Positions 1,417-25,086 of a stretch of 41,013 nucleotides of DNA are shown in pieces. The stretch lies in assembly GCA_013416795.1 (NCBI GenBank), contig RQSC01000012.1, forward strand, positions 171,385 through 212,397, read 5' to 3'. Position 1 is the stretch's first letter, and each line of letters begins with the position of its first letter. Source of the DNA: Prasinococcaceae sp. CCMP 1430. Lineage: Eukaryota; Prasinodermophyta; Palmophyllophyceae; Prasinococcales; Prasinococcaceae. Made by a program: the position numbers and the translations under genes. The notes under the pieces are model-generated. The model saw nothing but the letters and a program-made list of their open reading frames with translations, had not been told where the DNA came from and did not search any database.

Positions 1417-1440
1417 CTAGTCGCGCGTGGGCGTGATAGG
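1381..1440. repeat. 30-bp tandem duplication spanning a stop codon
   Basis: Two copies with a 30-bp period, 1381–1410 and 1411–1440, match at 23 of the first 24 bases and then diverge. The second copy includes the last codons and the TAG stop of the minus-strand C5orf34-like gene. Because the period is a multiple of three, the first copy carries an in-frame repeat of the same terminal residues and a second TAG. Confidence 0.8.
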
Positions 1441-3738
1441 TTCTAGTGCTGCGGCCAGCAGCTGCATCTGCTGCTCGTTGCGCTTGAGCATCTCCTCGAC
1501 GAGTAGCTGCCTGCCCGCGGCCGTGCTCGCACCGCCTGGTAGCGCCGCGTCCCACTGCGCGGACGGTATGCTCAGCTGTGGGCTACCACGCTGCGCTTCC
1601 GCCAGCGCTGGGGCGGGCCGCCCGACGTCCATGGGAGGCGCAGCGTGCTCCCTGGCAGCCTGCACGCTTGCGTGCGGCTGGTCGCCCGTGCTGCCCGCTG
1701 CCCGCGTCGACTCTGCGTGCGCATCCCATCTCCTCACGGGGGTCACCGTGGGCGGTGCGGCTCTTGGCGCCTCTTCGCTTGCAAGCGGCGAAGGCGTCGG
1801 TGCGAGCGCTTCTGCGTCGTACCGTCCTGAGAGGGCAAGCGAGCACACAGCGCGTTGCCGCTGGTTGGCGGCGAGCGTGGCGTCGATGTGCTGCTGTGCG
1901 CGCGTGGCCTGCGAGCGTTCCTCGGGCGTCTTGAAGGCCCAGTCGGCGAACTCCAGCGCGTCGCGCACGTAGCCCTCCGCCCCGATGGGTGCTGCCACGC
2001 GGACTGTGGTGCGCGTGCCGTCGGGAAAGATGACGTCTGCCGTGTTGCGCTCGCCGTCCAGCTCGAGCAGAGTGCGATCGCGAAAGGACACGCGTACCCG
2101 GCCGTCCGCGTACGCAGAGAACGCGCCCTGCCGCGGCACCTCAACGCGCGTGACGAGCGTCGTCGAAACCACGGCCGCCTTGGTCGCGCCTCTGCCCAGC
2201 CCCGCGCCTGGCGCGGCCGCAGCGGCAGCCTCAGTCGCGGCCTCGAGCTGCGCTCGTTCGGCGGCATCCGCGGCCACGGCGGCCGCGCGCAAGGCGACAG
2301 CGCGCCTCGCGGCGGCGCCTAGTGGTACCGCAACGGAATCGTGCAAATTCGAGCTCGCGGGGCTCCTCCCCTCGCCCTCGCCCTCGTCCTTGCCGTGCGC
2401 GATCTCATTCGAGTACTCACTGGTAGCAAGACCTGCGCCCGCCACACTTGTGCGTGCGGACGTGGCCCCGCGCCTCAGGGCATACACGTGCTCAGGCACA
2501 TTCGCCGCCGCCAGCGTGGTGCTATCCTCGTCGCGGGCGCCTGTAACGTGCCGCACGAGCAGACCGCCGGCGGCCGTCTCGAGAAGCGAGCCGTCCGCAG
2601 CGAGCGTGCCGCGCACCTCGCCTTCGCCACCGCGCGCGTGACCGCTCCTGCCGTGCGGTGTCGCCACCCAGTGCAGCGTGCAAGCGGGTGTCCACTCGAC
2701 GAGCGGCGCGTGGGCGGGGTCGGAGCTGTAGGTCTCCAGCGATGCGCTGCGCCACCACGACGAGCCGCCCAGGTCTGACCAGCCAGGGACTACCGCGCCC
2801 TCACCCGCGCGCGGCACCGCTGGGAGCGCGGTCGAGGAACCGCCCGCGCCAGCTGCTGCGAGGGTGGCCGCATCCGCGCACGCGGCCGCGCTGGTCGGCG
2901 CGCAGCCGCTCGCGCGCGCGTCCAGTGCGAGCCGCACTGCCGGTCGCCAGCGCTCCGGATAGCAGCCATCCGTTGCCGCGAACACCTGCGACTGCCACAC
3001 GCACTCGCTCTGCTGCTCCTGCGCGTCGCGCGCGTTGGGTGCTCGCCCAGCGTCGTCCGCGTCGTCCGCGAGCGCAGGCGGCAGTGCGAGCGGATACGTG
3101 ACGCAGAAGTGCGCGCCGTGCGCCGAGAGGAGCAAGTGCGCTGAGCCGCACAGCGAGCGCACTGAGATGGCACCCGTCTCGGCGGACGCGCTCACGTGGC
3201 CCACCGCTGCGCCCGCACGCGCCGTGGCGGGCCACGCGACGGCGGGCGGGCGCGCACGAGGCGCAGAGAATGGCGTACAATAGCCCGCTGCCCGTGCGAG
3301 TGCCCCGCTCTCCGCGTACGGAGGCGCGTCGGCGCACGCGCCGCAGTGCATGTTGCGAAAGCGCAGCACGGCGCCGACGCGCGCGGCGTGCTCGCGCGTG
3401 GCGCACGCGCTCAGCTGGCGGCGCAGCTCGCCGCGTTGCGACACCGCCGTGAAGGCTCGACCGCCGGGCTCCAGCCACAGCGCCGAGCCGTCCGAGAACT
3501 GCCCGCGCGCTGCGCCGCAGCGCGTGAGCACGCAGCGCACGAGCGACGGCGCTCCGGCGCGCATCTCGGCGGTAGACGCCGTGGCCGCGGCGGCCTTGCC
3601 GGGGCGTGCATCGTCCGCGTGTGCGTGCTGCCGCCCTGCGGCCTTGCGCGTTGGCGTGGGCGCCGAGGGCCGCGCCGCCAGCGCGTCCCCGCCCGCGCCC
3701 ACCATCCCTTGGTCGACCGCCTCGCAAGGCGCGGACAT
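1417..3738 (-). CDS. C5orf34-family protein (DUF4524/DUF4520-like)
   Basis: A 773-aa protein with sequence hallmarks of the C5orf34 family, whose function is not known. An N-terminal module (about residues 68–200) contains FSDGSALWLEPGG, the family's DGS-x-L-x-L-x-P signature. A middle segment has CVWQSQVFAATDGCYPERW. A C-terminal module (about 535–615) starts FSAYADGRVRVSF and continues through VIFPDGTRTTVRV. The linkers are Ala/Gly-rich and low in complexity, with an Ala-rich helix before the C-terminal module. An in-frame start 23 codons upstream (3807) lies in the CA/CG microsatellite and would encode a Cys-Val run, so I chose the ATG at 3738. The gene diverges from the JmjC gene and converges with the desaturase. 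No intron is needed. Family assignment is by eye and should be confirmed by profile search. Confidence 0.75.
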   Translation of the reverse strand: MSAPCEAVDQGMVGAGGDALAARPSAPTPTRKAAGRQHAHADDARPGKAAAATASTAEMRAGAPSLVRCVLTRCGAARGQFSDGSALWLEPGGRAFTAVSQRGELRRQLSACATREHAARVGAVLRFRNMHCGACADAPPYAESGALARAAGYCTPFSAPRARPPAVAWPATARAGAAVGHVSASAETGAISVRSLCGSAHLLLSAHGAHFCVTYPLALPPALADDADDAGRAPNARDAQEQQSECVWQSQVFAATDGCYPERWRPAVRLALDARASGCAPTSAAACADAATLAAAGAGGSSTALPAVPRAGEGAVVPGWSDLGGSSWWRSASLETYSSDPAHAPLVEWTPACTLHWVATPHGRSGHARGGEGEVRGTLAADGSLLETAAGGLLVRHVTGARDEDSTTLAAANVPEHVYALRRGATSARTSVAGAGLATSEYSNEIAHGKDEGEGEGRSPASSNLHDSVAVPLGAAARRAVALRAAAVAADAAERAQLEAATEAAAAAAPGAGLGRGATKAAVVSTTLVTRVEVPRQGAFSAYADGRVRVSFRDRTLLELDGERNTADVIFPDGTRTTVRVAAPIGAEGYVRDALEFADWAFKTPEERSQATRAQQHIDATLAANQRQRAVCSLALSGRYDAEALAPTPSPLASEEAPRAAPPTVTPVRRWDAHAESTRAAGSTGDQPHASVQAAREHAAPPMDVGRPAPALAEAQRGSPQLSIPSAQWDAALPGGASTAAGRQLLVEEMLKRNEQQMQLLAAALEPITPTRD

Positions 3739-3770
3739 TGCGGCCGCCCCCGCTCCCCGCTCCCTGTGCC

Positions 3771-3815
3771 CACGCACGCACGCACCCACGCACACACACA
3801 CACACACCTACACCC
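3771..3815. repeat. CA/CACG microsatellite in a divergent promoter
   Basis: An (ACGC)n stretch runs into an uninterrupted CA run at 3791–3807, just upstream of the minus-strand ATG at 3738. It would be translated as a Cys-Val run if translation began further upstream, which argues that it is 5' UTR or promoter. Confidence 0.85.
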
Positions 3816-3951
3816 ACCCCTCACCCCGCGAGGCTGGCGCGCGCGCGCCCGAAATTCGACAACGCGCTTTTCCCGCCACCACCACCCCGCGGCGTGGGCA
3901 GGGGCATGGACGACCCCGGTCTGCGACGCCCGCTGAGGACCGTCTGATCGG

Positions 3952-5985
3952 ATGTGTATGCTGAATCACCGGGGATCTTCGGACGAGCGAAACCCCGGAG
4001 TGCAGATGTGTATACGGGGTCAGCGCTGGAATCGCGATGAGGGAGGCCGCCACGACGAATTTGCTTTGCTTTGCTTTCCCCCCATCAAAAGACACGAACG
4101 AACGGCCGCGCGACCACACCTCGCGCCGCCGGCAGACGCGCTGGCGAGGCCGGGGGGGGGGGGGGACGGCGCGGCGCCGGGGCTGGGCGCACGCGTTGCC
4201 ATCGACGCGTCCGCGCTCTCGGACGAGGCCGCCGGCTTCGACGCAGCGAGGGTGCTGCTCGGGGGACTGCTCGCGGACGCAGGCATCGACGCGCCCGTCA
4301 CGGGCGCCAGCGGCCTGCGCGGCCTGCGCAGGAGACGGCGAGCGCCGCCGTCGGCCGCCTACTCCAAGCCAGTTGAACTGGAAGGGGGTACTGGAGAAGA
4401 GCCGCGGCCGCCGCTGTCCTCTCCCGTGGCGCCGAGCCCGCCGCGAGCGCCGCGCCCGCCGAGCAGCCGGGGCGCTCGGCCTCATCCCACAAGCCGTGGC
4501 AGCCTCGGGAGCGCCCGTGCTACGCGCGCATCGCTCTCGCCCGCTGCGTCCAAGGAAGCCATCACAGCGGCTCATCGGCGGCGGGGCCTCGGCAGCCTGG
4601 CGGTCCTCCCCCCACACATCCTCGAGCGCGTGCTCTCGAGCCTGCTCCCCCGCAGCCTCACGTGCGTGGGCTGTGCGTCGCCTGCGCTGCGCGCGGTGGT
4701 GCACGACGAGGCGCTCTGGCGTCAGGCGGCGCTCCGCCGCGCGCACTCCGGGATGGCGCCGCCTTGCACGCGCTACGCGCTCGACGGTTCCGCGCCCGAT
4801 GTGTGCGTCATCCCCTTCGACTGCAGCACGCTGAGCTGGCGGGTTTGTATGGGTGTGGGAAAGGGCGCGGGCTTGGGTGCCGGCGGTGCCGACGAGCTTG
4901 CGTGCCAGTCGAAGGTGCCCCCCGCTTCGCCCGAGCTGCTGCTCGCCCTGCCTCTGGTGGCGCAACGCCGCAGGCTGCGCAGCATTAGCCTTTCGGCGTT
5001 GTCGGTGCTGCCAGAGGACGCGCGCGAGGTGCTGCGCCTCGACAGCGGCACCACAAGCGACAAGTTCGCGCGCGAATGCGACTCCCTGCAGGCGCCAGCG
5101 GTGCTCAAGGGCGCGGCCAATATGTGGCCGCTCTGCGGCGTCGAGGCCTCGCAGCTGTGCGAGGCCTTTCCCGGCGCGCCACTTCGCACGACCGAGGGCG
5201 GGCTCTGTATGACAGGCGAGTGCTTCGGCGCGTATCTGAAAGCTAATGAAGGCCTCGAGGCGCTCGATGCGGAGCCGCTCTGCGTCTGCGATCCGGAACT
5301 TGGTGGTGCTCCCATCGCGCCGGAAATCGAGGCCGGCTACGCCGTGCCCAACGCCATTGCTGGCGGGTGCGTGGGCGGTGATCTGATGGAAGTAGGCAAC
5401 GTCTTGTGCGGCGACAGGCGGCCCGCGAACAGGTGGCTTCTAGCGGCCCCACCTCGGGCAGGCTGGCGTTGGCACGCTGGTCCTGCGCTCACGTGCGCGT
5501 GGCACGCGCTTGCGTCCGGGAGGCAGCGTTGGGCGCTCTATCCTCCCGGCCAGCTTCCGGAGGGGGCCGGTGCCGTCTCCGCGGCCAAGGACAACGAGAG
5601 CAAGGCTGGAACGGACGACCCTTCAGCGCTCGAGTGGTTTACCCGTGTGTATCCTTCATTGGTGCCGCATGAGAGACCGCTCGAGTGCGTGCTGGAAGCG
5701 GGAGACGTCATATGGTTGCCGGCTGGGTGGTGGCACTGCGCGCTCAACATTGAAGAGACTCTGGCGGTGCGACACAGCTTGGTCACGGAGGCCAGCCTGA
5801 TCGCTGCTCAGCGGCAAAGCGTGCGGTATTCATCGGACGAATCGCCTGTGGCCGGCAAGGCGAGTGGGACGCACCGCTCCGAAAGCTTGTGCGGCCTAGG
5901 CGGCGACGCACAGGCGGCTTGGGCTGCAGCAGTGCGCGAGCACCGCCCCCACCTCAGCGGCGCTATGGAGGCGCTCGGGCTGTAA
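3952..5985 (+). CDS. F-box / JmjC-domain protein with altered iron-binding triad
   Basis: The 677-aa frame has an F-box-like segment at about residues 213–262 (LAVLPPHILERVLSSLLP…) and a C-terminal JmjC double-stranded beta-helix at about 370–615, the architecture of plant JMJ21/22 and close to JMJD6. Such enzymes are Fe(II)/2-oxoglutarate hydroxylases or demethylases. The second metal His is kept in GDVIWLPAGWWHCALN (H595). The first motif reads WHAGPALTCAWHALASG: aligned with the family HxDP…WNAL it gives H508-x-G510, so the Asp ligand is Gly, and the 2-oxoglutarate-contacting Asn and Lys positions also differ (H518, Q525). It may be inactive or have a changed reaction. The N-terminus is uncertain: ATGs at 3952, 3958 and 4006 precede a G14 tract (4152–4165) where a one-base length error would change the upstream frame. 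The fold is confident, the start is not. Confidence 0.85.
   Translation: MCMLNHRGSSDERNPGVQMCIRGQRWNRDEGGRHDEFALLCFPPIKRHERTAARPHLAPPADALARPGGGGDGAAPGLGARVAIDASALSDEAAGFDAARVLLGGLLADAGIDAPVTGASGLRGLRRRRRAPPSAAYSKPVELEGGTGEEPRPPLSSPVAPSPPRAPRPPSSRGARPHPTSRGSLGSARATRASLSPAASKEAITAAHRRRGLGSLAVLPPHILERVLSSLLPRSLTCVGCASPALRAVVHDEALWRQAALRRAHSGMAPPCTRYALDGSAPDVCVIPFDCSTLSWRVCMGVGKGAGLGAGGADELACQSKVPPASPELLLALPLVAQRRRLRSISLSALSVLPEDAREVLRLDSGTTSDKFARECDSLQAPAVLKGAANMWPLCGVEASQLCEAFPGAPLRTTEGGLCMTGECFGAYLKANEGLEALDAEPLCVCDPELGGAPIAPEIEAGYAVPNAIAGGCVGGDLMEVGNVLCGDRRPANRWLLAAPPRAGWRWHAGPALTCAWHALASGRQRWALYPPGQLPEGAGAVSAAKDNESKAGTDDPSALEWFTRVYPSLVPHERPLECVLEAGDVIWLPAGWWHCALNIEETLAVRHSLVTEASLIAAQRQSVRYSSDESPVAGKASGTHRSESLCGLGGDAQAAWAAAVREHRPHLSGAMEALGL
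4152..4165. repeat. G14 homopolymer inside the JmjC gene
   Basis: A run of 14 G lies in the N-terminal coding part and is read as four glycines. A length error here would join the downstream frame to a different upstream start, for example the ATG at 4037 in another frame. It should be treated as an assembly and start-site caution. Confidence 0.9.
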
Positions 5986-21422: not shown

Positions 21423-22695
21423 CGGCGGCGGCCCGCGCCCGCGCGCCCGCCGCGACTGCCGGTAGTAGTAGGTAGCTGCTCTCTCTCTCTAGACTAGCTA
21501 GCTAGGGCCCCCTGTGAGAAGATCAGTCCGTCCGTGCATAGTGTCCTCACCACGGCTGGCGCCGACGTCGAAGCGGCCGGGGTGGTGTGGCGAAACAGCA
21601 AGCACGCAACCCACCGCTGGCTCGTCCGGCGGGGGGGCTCGGCACGCACAGCCCGTCGCTCGCCGCCTCGCTACCCCGCGGCGGCGGCCCTCCCCACTTT
21701 GCCCCTTCCCCTCCCCTCCCCCCCTCCCCCCGGTCCCCTGCGCGCCGCGTTTCCGCCATCGCACGAGCATGCCATCGCTCGCCATCGAGCGCATGTGCGC
21801 GCCGGCGCCGCTCAAGGGGCACTGCGCCGCGTGGCGGGGGCACTTTTCGCGGTTGGGCCGCGGGCGCCCCGCCGTGCCCGTCTCTCCCGCGCCGGGATTG
21901 AGCCGCGCGCGCGGCACGTCGGCGCCCTCCGGTTCGGGCGGGGGAACGGCGCGCCATCCCATCACGCCGCACGCGCCTCACATCCACGGCCTCATCTGCG
22001 CCGCGCCCTCAGTCAAGTCAGCCCGCGCTCCGCGCTCGCCCCCGCCCCGCTCCCCGTCCGGCGCCCGGCCACAACCGCCCGCGGACTGTCGGGACCGAAA
22101 AGTGCAAACAAGATCCATCCGCCCGCGCGCGCGGATCCCGCTCCGCGGAACCTCGAAACCCATCAGAACGCATCCGCGCGCGACTGCATGTGAAAGTGTC
22201 TGATATTTGTCACCCGCAAAAAAAATCGCGCGGACGCGGGCGAAGCCACGTGCCCTTTTTTGCCCTTTTTTTCTCGGGGCGCGGCAGTTTCGAGGGGGAG
22301 CGGCGCGGAGCGGAGATGTCGAAACGAAGGCGCTCTGAATTTACGGAAGTGAATTCGGATGGTGCGCGGCGGCGGGCGAACGGCGGCGCCCTCGCGGAAG
22401 GGCGCGCGCGCGCCGGGGCGACGCAGCCACACGGCGGCGCGCGGACGCCGGCGGCGCGCGCGCGCGTGTGGTGGTGGTGGTGGTGGGGTGGGTGGGGCGG
22501 AGGAGGAAAGAGAGCGACCGCGCTCCCTCTCACCGCCCTTCCGCTTCTGGCGCGCGCGCTTCGCCGACCCCTCCGCTCGCACCACGCCGCCGACGCCGAC
22601 AACGCGCCCGCAAACAAACACTTCCACGCCAAGCGGGGGGGGGGGGGGGGGGGGGGGAGGGTAACCCTTACCGCCGCCCGCGTTTCGGTACCGCC
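21423..22695. other. Long intergenic region without a supported gene
   Basis: About 1.27 kb separates SEC15 and the F-box–Kelch gene. It holds a CT-repeat and CTAG-rich stretch at 21480–21505, C-rich pyrimidine tracts near 21700–21735, A/T runs at 22217–22225 and 22255–22272, a TGG/GGT-rich stretch at 22465–22500, and a G23 run at 22635–22657 just before the next start. Open frames exist on both strands but are Arg/Pro/Ala-rich and show no motif, so I call none. I looked for a LOV domain upstream of the Kelch gene and saw none. Confidence 0.5.
22635..22657. repeat. G23 homopolymer in the 5' UTR of the F-box–Kelch gene
   Basis: An uninterrupted run of 23 G ends 38 bp before the ATG at 22696. 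In RNA it could form a G-quadruplex near the start codon. A second run of 11 G (22740–22750) lies within the first 20 codons of the gene. Confidence 0.9.
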
Positions 22696-25086
22696 ATGCT
22701 GCTCCCGGCAGACGCCCAGCAGGCGCTGGGGTGCGCGGTGGGGGGGGGGGCTCTGAAGCTGTCCGGCCGCGAGGACGCCGCGGGGCGCGCGTCGGAGGAG
22801 GCGTCCCTGGAGGAGGCCGCCGCGGCCGCCGCGCTGCGCGCGCCCGGCGATGGGGAGGCCGCGGCGCAGCCGGCCACGCTGCTGTCGCTCACCGACGCGA
22901 TCCTGGCCGCGCACGTGCTGCGGCGCTGCCCAATACGCGACGTGTGCGCCATGGCGGGAGTGTGCCGTCGGCTGCGCCGCACGGTGTTGCAGTCGAGCGG
23001 GATGTGGGAGGCGCTCTTCGAGCGTGACTTCGGCACGCACGCCGCCGCGGGCGTGCGAAAGGCGCTCTCGCAACGCTTCACCTGGCGGCACGCAGCGCGG
23101 CAGATGATCGACCTGAGCGGGCTGCACTGGAACAAGCTGCACGCACGGGTTGCGCCCACCATCAGGCCGCGCTGCAACTTTGCGCTCTGCGCAGTGGGCG
23201 AGAAGCTGTACACGTTCGGCGGCGAGGGCGAGGGCATGACGGCGCAGGGCGACGTGTGCATGGTCGACCTCGCTGCCACCGCGCCGCAGTGGCAGCACGT
23301 CGAGACTGTGGGCGAGTCGCCCCCCCCACGGTGGGGGCACACGCTGACGCACGTCGAGGGCGACAGCGGCAGCACCCTCGTGGTGTTCGGCGGATGCAAT
23401 CCCGAGGGAGCGCTCGACGACCTGTGGGTGCTGGAAATCGACGGGGAGCCGATGCCGCGCTGGCGGCGTGTGTGTGCGGCGCGAGCCAAGGCGCGTGCGC
23501 GCACCTGGCACTCGAGCTGCGTGGTGGAGGGCTCGCGTTTGGCAGTGTACGGTGGTGCCACGATGGACGGCACCCTGCTCTCCGACCTGGCTGTGATTGA
23601 TGTGCTCGCCGAGCGTCCCTGCTGGAGGGTCATCGAGGCGGAGAGCGAGGGCAAGCCCTCCGCCCGCCTTGGCCAGTCCCTCGTGAGCATCGGCGGCGCA
23701 CGCCTGCACATGTTCGGTGGCCTGGCGTCGGGCTCCAGGCCAGGCGAGAGCAGCCATTCGGACGAAACGTACGTGATCAATGTTGACGACGACGTGCCCC
23801 GATGGGAACGCGTGGGAACCGCCGGGCCGAGCAGCTCGAACGACAGCGTCGGTAGGAGCGACGCCGCGCAAGTCAAGCCCTTGGGAGATCGCGAGCATCG
23901 GCCCACGCCGAGGTACGATCACGCGTGCCTCGGCCTGCCGGGCGGTCGTGTGCTGATCTTCGGAGGGCTCGGACAGCTCGGGTTGCAGTCGCCAATGCAG
24001 ATCTTTGCCATCACGCCGAACTCGGCAGCACCGCACTGGCGCAGATTGTGTCCGCGTGGCACGCCGCCGGAAAATGCTTGGGGCCACTCCACTCACCTCA
24101 CGCGCGGGCTGAACGTCGTGATGATTGGTGGCGGCGCTTCGGATGGCTCCGACTGGGACTTGGGCACGATTCACGAGCTCAGGCTCGTCTGTGCAGAGCC
24201 CGAGGCGCGTTCTGATGCCGCCACGCGCGTGCGCCCAGCGGTGCGCAAGTCTCCAAAGCAGTGGCGCGCGTTGCATGCCGAGGTCCCGGTCATCCGCAGC
24301 GACGGCGATGGTAGCGGCGGCAACGAGAGTGGCGGAGAGACCAGCAGCGGTGCTGGGGGTAGCGGCGATGACGACAATGTGCTGCCCGAGAGTGTGCCCG
24401 GCGCTGGCATGCGCAAGCTCGACTGGACCAGCCCTCAGCGACAGGGGGAGGCCTGCGCACGCGGCGCCGCCGCCGCCAACACGTGCACGGATGAGCCGGA
24501 CTTTGGAGGCCAGGTCCGGAGCACGCAGTACTACGCCGCTGCCGGGACGGGCCACCCGTCGAGGGCACTCTTGAATCGTGCGCGGGCCGGTGTGGGCGGA
24601 GAAGAGTCGCGGAAGTACTATGGCTCTGAAGAATCGTCAAGTGGGGAAGAGACCCCGCCGGGCGCCGTGGCTGTGAAGTCGATTGGTCGAGATGGAGGTG
24701 GGTCGATGGGGGACGCTGCAGCCCAGGCTCCTCTACTGTCTGAGAGTCCTGCGGGCCACAAGCGCGTGCGCGAGTGGTCAAGTCGCGAGGCGACCTCGGG
24801 CAGCAACGACATGAGCACGAGCGACGGGCTGAGCATGAGCACAAGCGAGCCCTTCAGCTCGGGGTCGGGCTCGACCTCAGTCCGTGAGACGTCTTCGGGG
24901 TCGGGATCCGGATCGGGGTCTGGCTCCAACGACAGCAGCTCCTCTTCTCCAGGAGAGTCGTCCGGTCCGGATGACGTCGCCGAGGAGCCCAAGGGCAGTC
25001 CCTCCGCCTCGCACTCATCAGGCGCGCCTCCCTGCAAACCGCTCGTGGTGTTGGCCACGGCTCATGCCCCAAAGCCGCGCGAGTGA
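22696..25086 (+). CDS. F-box–Kelch protein, ZEITLUPE/ADAGIO-like but without LOV domain
   Basis: A 796-aa protein. An F-box-like segment lies at about 62–112 (LLSLTDAILAAHVLRRCPIR…VCRRLRR), followed by HAARQMIDL. Six Kelch repeats follow between about 155 and 505, with cores LYTFGGEGEG, LVVFGGCNPEG, LAVYGGATMDG, LHMFGGLASG, VLIFGGLGQLG and VVMIGGGASDG. The order and intervening motifs (RTWHSSC, SARLGQSL, RYDHACLGLPGGRVLIFGG, AWGHSTH) match the Kelch half of plant ZTL/FKF1/LKP2, SCF adaptors that degrade clock proteins. The blue-light LOV domain those proteins carry at the N-terminus is absent; an Ala/Glu-rich 60-residue leader takes its place. A ~290-residue Ser/Gly/acidic tail is unlike plant members. 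It probably acts as an SCF ubiquitin-ligase substrate receptor; the substrate is unknown. Confidence 0.86.
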   Translation: MLLPADAQQALGCAVGGGALKLSGREDAAGRASEEASLEEAAAAAALRAPGDGEAAAQPATLLSLTDAILAAHVLRRCPIRDVCAMAGVCRRLRRTVLQSSGMWEALFERDFGTHAAAGVRKALSQRFTWRHAARQMIDLSGLHWNKLHARVAPTIRPRCNFALCAVGEKLYTFGGEGEGMTAQGDVCMVDLAATAPQWQHVETVGESPPPRWGHTLTHVEGDSGSTLVVFGGCNPEGALDDLWVLEIDGEPMPRWRRVCAARAKARARTWHSSCVVEGSRLAVYGGATMDGTLLSDLAVIDVLAERPCWRVIEAESEGKPSARLGQSLVSIGGARLHMFGGLASGSRPGESSHSDETYVINVDDDVPRWERVGTAGPSSSNDSVGRSDAAQVKPLGDREHRPTPRYDHACLGLPGGRVLIFGGLGQLGLQSPMQIFAITPNSAAPHWRRLCPRGTPPENAWGHSTHLTRGLNVVMIGGGASDGSDWDLGTIHELRLVCAEPEARSDAATRVRPAVRKSPKQWRALHAEVPVIRSDGDGSGGNESGGETSSGAGGSGDDDNVLPESVPGAGMRKLDWTSPQRQGEACARGAAAANTCTDEPDFGGQVRSTQYYAAAGTGHPSRALLNRARAGVGGEESRKYYGSEESSSGEETPPGAVAVKSIGRDGGGSMGDAAAQAPLLSESPAGHKRVREWSSREATSGSNDMSTSDGLSMSTSEPFSSGSGSTSVRETSSGSGSGSGSGSNDSSSSSPGESSGPDDVAEEPKGSPSASHSSGAPPCKPLVVLATAHAPKPRE

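Follow-up and report, generated by a model that had tools for sequence, protein, structure and literature searches.

A predicted F-box/JmjC protein of Prasinococcaceae sp. CCMP 1430 with a substituted iron site and 2-oxoglutarate pocket, probably a catalytically dead oxygenase

The analysed window comprises 41,013 nucleotides of contig RQSC01000012.1 (positions 171,385 to 212,397) from the alga Prasinococcaceae sp. CCMP 1430. An uninterrupted frame of 682 codons on the plus strand (3937-5985) encodes the F-box/JmjC protein that is described here (Table 1). Pfam confirmed the order of its two domains, with the F-box-like match at query residues 201-244 and the JmjC match at residues 479-592, the latter overlapped by a Cupin_8 match (PF13621, 38.3 bits, cutoff 27.4). 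All Pfam matches of the protein belonged to cupin, JmjC and F-box families, and matches to PhyH or to the AspH family were absent from this search. A sequence search of the PDB returned human JMJD6 with an E-value of 1e-22, and the next solved structure followed at 0.056. The ~215 residues N-terminal to the F-box form a low-complexity stretch, and it is uncertain where the protein truly starts. At the start of the frame (3952-4030, plus strand) a short motif is present as two near-copies, ggatgtgtatgctg and agatgtgtatacgg, which are similar to a portion of a sequencing transposase end; chance could explain this similarity, but it makes the assigned start less certain. Two further genes of the window were annotated. 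A second F-box-type protein is encoded at 22339-25086 (plus strand), where a weak F-box match below the cutoff is followed by strong Kelch repeats. A frame of 796 amino acids at 1417-3807 (minus strand) contains the N- and C-terminal domains of C5orf34, a poorly characterised eukaryotic family.

Table 1. Coordinates of the F-box/JmjC protein, its domains and its aligned active-site positions in the window (2OG, 2-oxoglutarate)
Feature	Position	Strand	Basis
F-box/JmjC protein, open reading frame from first ATG, 677 aa	3952..5985	+	frame analysis
F-box-like domain	4600..4731	+	Pfam PF12937, 27.3 bits (cutoff 24.3)
Cys444 (TGC) for JMJD6 Tyr131, contact to 2OG C5 carboxylate	5281..5283	+	alignment
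JmjC domain	5434..5775	+	PF02373, 31.8 bits (cutoff 24)
Trp505 (TGG) for JMJD6 Thr184, 2OG contact	5464..5466	+	alignment
His508 (CAC) = JMJD6 His187, first iron ligand, retained	5473..5475	+	PDB-search alignment to JMJD6
Gly510 (GGT) replacing iron ligand JMJD6 Asp189	5479..5481	+	JMJD6 alignment
His518 (CAC) for JMJD6 Asn197, 2OG contact	5503..5505	+	alignment
Gln525 (CAG) for JMJD6 Lys204, 2OG salt bridge	5524..5526	+	alignment
His595 (CAC) = JMJD6 His273, distal iron ligand, retained	5734..5736	+	JMJD6 alignment
Arg607 (CGA) for JMJD6 Thr285, predicted 2OG contact	5770..5772	+	alignment

In the structure of JMJD6 with iron and 2OG the metal ligands are His187, Asp189 and His273 (PMC6663879). 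The alignment to JMJD6 places G510 on D189 without gaps close by, and the motif reads H508-A509-G510-P511. Instead of the HxD/E...H iron triad of catalytic JmjC oxygenases, the F-box/JmjC protein thus carries HAG...H. This agrees with an earlier note on the same DNA, which had reported HxG in place of HxD and whose numbering of H508, G510, H518, Q525 and H595 was exact when counted from the ATG at 3952. A one-base read error (GAT to GGT) as the origin of Gly510 was rejected because five further pocket residues are changed. The 42-residue stretch that opens with N494, immediately ahead of the equivalent of W174, and closes with Q535 is free of Asp and Glu, and therefore no neighbouring carboxylate is available to stand in for Asp189; a carboxylate located far away in the protein could still replace it. 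In JMJD6 itself, the D189A variant did not support productive hydroxylation (PMC6663879).

The pocket for the co-substrate is changed as well. JMJD6 holds the C5 carboxylate of 2OG with Lys204, Tyr131, Thr184 and Asn197 (PMC6663879), and Thr285 is a further, predicted contact (PMC2453528). None of these five positions is kept in the F-box/JmjC protein (Y131C, T184W, N197H, K204Q and T285R), and the invariant residues Q286 and N287 are replaced by H608 and S609 directly after Arg607. The earlier note had listed two differing 2OG contacts, H518 and Q525; both do differ, but the count was too low. Its description of the rest of the fold as well conserved applies only in part, as 32 of 55 positions that are invariant in JMJD6 and in the two paralogues L002 and L003 (described below) are kept. 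The two iron histidines are the only survivors of the active site.

Taken by itself, the HxG motif would imply neither the death of activity nor a halogenase, to judge from characterised enzymes. AspH is a natural HxG...H hydroxylase with two histidine ligands, and the D201G variant of FIH is catalytically viable (PMC6817910). An active two-histidine hydroxylase of the AspH type, in which Gly takes the place of Asp and water fills the site, would accord with these precedents and with the retention of both histidines. However, AspH and FIH D201G are hydroxylating enzymes of other subfamilies with an intact 2OG pocket, AspH falls into a Pfam family that the F-box/JmjC protein does not match, and the JMJD6-type contacts have all gone, Lys204 included. 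Because every one of these contacts is replaced, the protein is unlikely to be a hydroxylase or halogenase that depends on 2OG. Together with the failure of JMJD6 D189A to hydroxylate its substrate, this makes an AspH-like activity very improbable.

The earlier note had also suggested a Fe/2OG halogenase in which a halide would occupy the place left by the lost carboxylate, on the model of SyrB2 and WelO5. SyrB2 is a member of the PhyH family, which is absent from the Pfam matches of the F-box/JmjC protein. The exchange of HxD for HxG does recall the halogenases, which have two histidine ligands (PMC6817910), but these enzymes still need 2OG and the JMJD6-type residues that would contact it are replaced throughout, although the protein could conceivably bind 2OG in a mode unlike that of JMJD6. 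In addition, AspH, which has the same motif, displayed no halogenase activity when chloride was supplied (PMC6817910), and attachment to an F-box suggests a role at the protein level. The halogenase proposal is hardly credible on these grounds, and the F-box/JmjC protein is not expected to open new halogenation chemistry.

Cupin dioxygenases with a three-histidine metal centre that do not require 2OG exist. In the F-box/JmjC protein, such a 2OG-independent site would form if His518 joined His508 and His595. His518 occupies the position of Asn197, which lies in the pocket beside the metal, and the iron histidines have been retained although the whole 2OG pocket was lost. Furthermore, HxH in place of HxD is the motif of the JmjC subgroup JFP6 (PMC2453528), and a JmjC protein with HVHGP at this site is encoded in the same genome (L044, C68:170813-171079). 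The geometry of His518 is unreadable, however, from the predicted structures, both of which are of very low confidence: pLDDT was 39 for the single sequence and 36 when three distant bacterial relatives, but not the paralogues L002 and L003, were supplied. A Foldseek search with the latter model retrieved JMJD6 on top with a TM-score of only 0.24, and site geometry could not be read from the model. A three-histidine centre is considered quite improbable.

The protein was compared with its own genome (G000; 24.5 Mb, 145 contigs, 68.6% G+C), which encodes two JMJD6-like paralogues with intact sites. L003 (contig C98) is the JMJD6 orthologue with HVDP, Asn, Lys and Thr intact, and the part corresponding to the JMJD6 N-terminus sits in an upstream exon. 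The nearest relative is L002 (contig C84), which shares 39.8% identity over the JmjC region as well as a WH at the first iron histidine and the pattern LEC..EAGD. L002 differs from the F-box/JmjC protein in its intact catalytic site (HKDP, Asn, Lys, Tyr and Thr285, with Ser for Thr184) and in the lack of a Pfam-detected F-box. On the minus strand at 2784-2640 of the L002 locus, the second half of an F-box alone is recognisable by eye, in frame and preceded by a (CA)n repeat; its missing first half may have been lost or may reside in an exon that escaped recognition. Nearly all JmjC/Cupin_8 loci of the genome with a readable motif region have HxD or HxE, and among them HxG in an otherwise alignable site is confined to the F-box/JmjC protein. 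One Cupin_8 match (L019, C98:7547-7789) shows no HxD motif that could be read within its matched segment and is possibly a second degenerate JmjC-type protein of this genome. Beyond the genome, viral contigs were searched with the F-box/JmjC protein, with L003 and with a three-sequence alignment, and GTDB genomes with the three-sequence alignment. Neither search gave a eukaryotic match, the sole matches were three distant bacterial cupins, and a viral scan with one of these cupins as the query gave no match.

In a four-sequence test the F-box/JmjC protein paired with L002 in all of 2000 bootstrap samples. It has accumulated 32-33 unique changes versus 13 in L002 (Tajima p = 0.005 to 0.007), a rate about 2.5 times that of the intact paralogue and as expected under relaxed constraint. 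Third-position G+C of the JmjC part is 0.70, close to the 0.69 of the whole window, and in the matched JmjC segments it reaches 0.93 for L002 and 0.97 for L003. A few other JmjC/Cupin_8 genes are equally low (0.68 to 0.76), and the low value could reflect low expression or relaxed constraint. Both observations would suit an early pseudogene, a functionless duplicate that drifts and in which a stop codon has yet to arise. The frame is open, as the earlier note had stated, over 682 codons and has no frameshift, but on its own an open frame argues only weakly for selection, because 4 to 16% of neutral simulations with point changes to about 40-55% identity stayed free of stops. The lack of frameshifts and the retained F-box add to the case for selection; neutral drift this far would be expected to introduce indels as well. 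Both iron histidines are kept, the F-box scores above its cutoff, and family-invariant positions are preserved at 30 of 48 sites outside the active site versus none of the six non-histidine sites within it (Fisher p = 0.005, for a grouping picked after the data were seen; p = 0.06 to 0.12 with all active-site positions, histidines included). A pseudogene is therefore regarded as unlikely.

The best-supported reading, to which we assign a probability of roughly 0.7, is that the JmjC domain is catalytically dead and that the protein acts as an F-box protein scaffold or substrate receptor. The earlier note had named such a pseudo-oxygenase scaffold among its alternatives, and the changed iron Asp and 2OG contacts now speak for it, next to an F-box above cutoff and paralogues in the same genome that keep the site (with the Ser for Thr184 of L002). 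The substitutions, the F-box, the intact paralogues and the faster evolution are observed, and the loss of catalysis and the role as scaffold or receptor are inferred. The retained iron histidines speak against a dead site, in that a freely decaying site need not keep them. With the enzyme half disabled and the F-box still recognisable, the simplest reading would be that the beta-helix now functions in binding or as a scaffold. The genome contains at least 14 F-box-like genes above the cutoff, including the one described here, and three cullin matches. Skp1 was not matched in the genome by a search that was insensitive and found Skp1 in no control either. Given its predicted F-box, the protein is a candidate substrate receptor of an SCF ubiquitin ligase.

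This reading can be spelled out as follows. The protein would belong with the F-box/JMJD6-like proteins JcdI, JcdH and FBXO13, whose family occurs in protists, plants, algae and some fungi (PMC9485057, PMC11570480) and in which an N-terminal F-box is likewise followed by a JMJD6-like JmjC domain. Its 2OG pocket has been rebuilt, with Cys, Trp, His, Gln and Arg standing where JMJD6 has Tyr, Thr, Asn, Lys and Thr, and the iron has lost its carboxylate ligand. Still recognisable are the F-box and the core of the double-stranded beta-helix. Most likely the beta-helix would now provide a binding surface, either as a scaffold or as the substrate-recognising part of an SCF ubiquitin ligase, and the chemistry in the cell would be left to the two intact JMJD6-like paralogues.

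Several known systems resemble parts of this arrangement. JMJD6 shares the JmjC core, both iron histidines and Trp174 with the F-box/JmjC protein at about 31% identity; the latter adds an F-box and lacks Asp189 and the five 2OG contacts. JARID2, an inactive yet essential JmjC protein (PMC11241480), and hairless are precedents for non-catalytic action by JmjC domains whose catalytic residues are substituted (PMC11241480, PMC2453528), but both are chromatin proteins of KDM families without an F-box. Among F-box/JMJD6-like proteins, Dictyostelium JcdI is an active dioxygenase that is limited by physiological oxygen and whose F-box binds Skp1 (PMC9485057), in contrast to the erased site with a kept F-box seen here. 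For Toxoplasma FBXO13, the proposed role is that of an enzyme under regulation through Skp1, as opposed to a substrate receptor (PMC11570480).

F-box/JMJD6 proteins are currently viewed as enzymes that depend on oxygen and whose levels are controlled through Skp1, and not as substrate receptors (PMC9485057, PMC11570480). An ancestral F-box/JMJD6 enzyme that required oxygen might have been split by duplication, such that L002 kept the catalytic site and the F-box/JmjC protein kept the F-box, its JmjC domain turning into a binding module or into a metal site of three histidines (His508, His518 and His595) that needs no 2OG; this scenario is tentative and rather doubtful. If true, it would be a naturally occurring separation of functions that bears on the choice between enzyme and substrate receptor as the role of F-box/JMJD6 proteins. 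The presence of a clear F-box next to an erased pocket, with an intact paralogue alongside, suggests that the pairing of an F-box with a beta-helix can be useful without catalysis.
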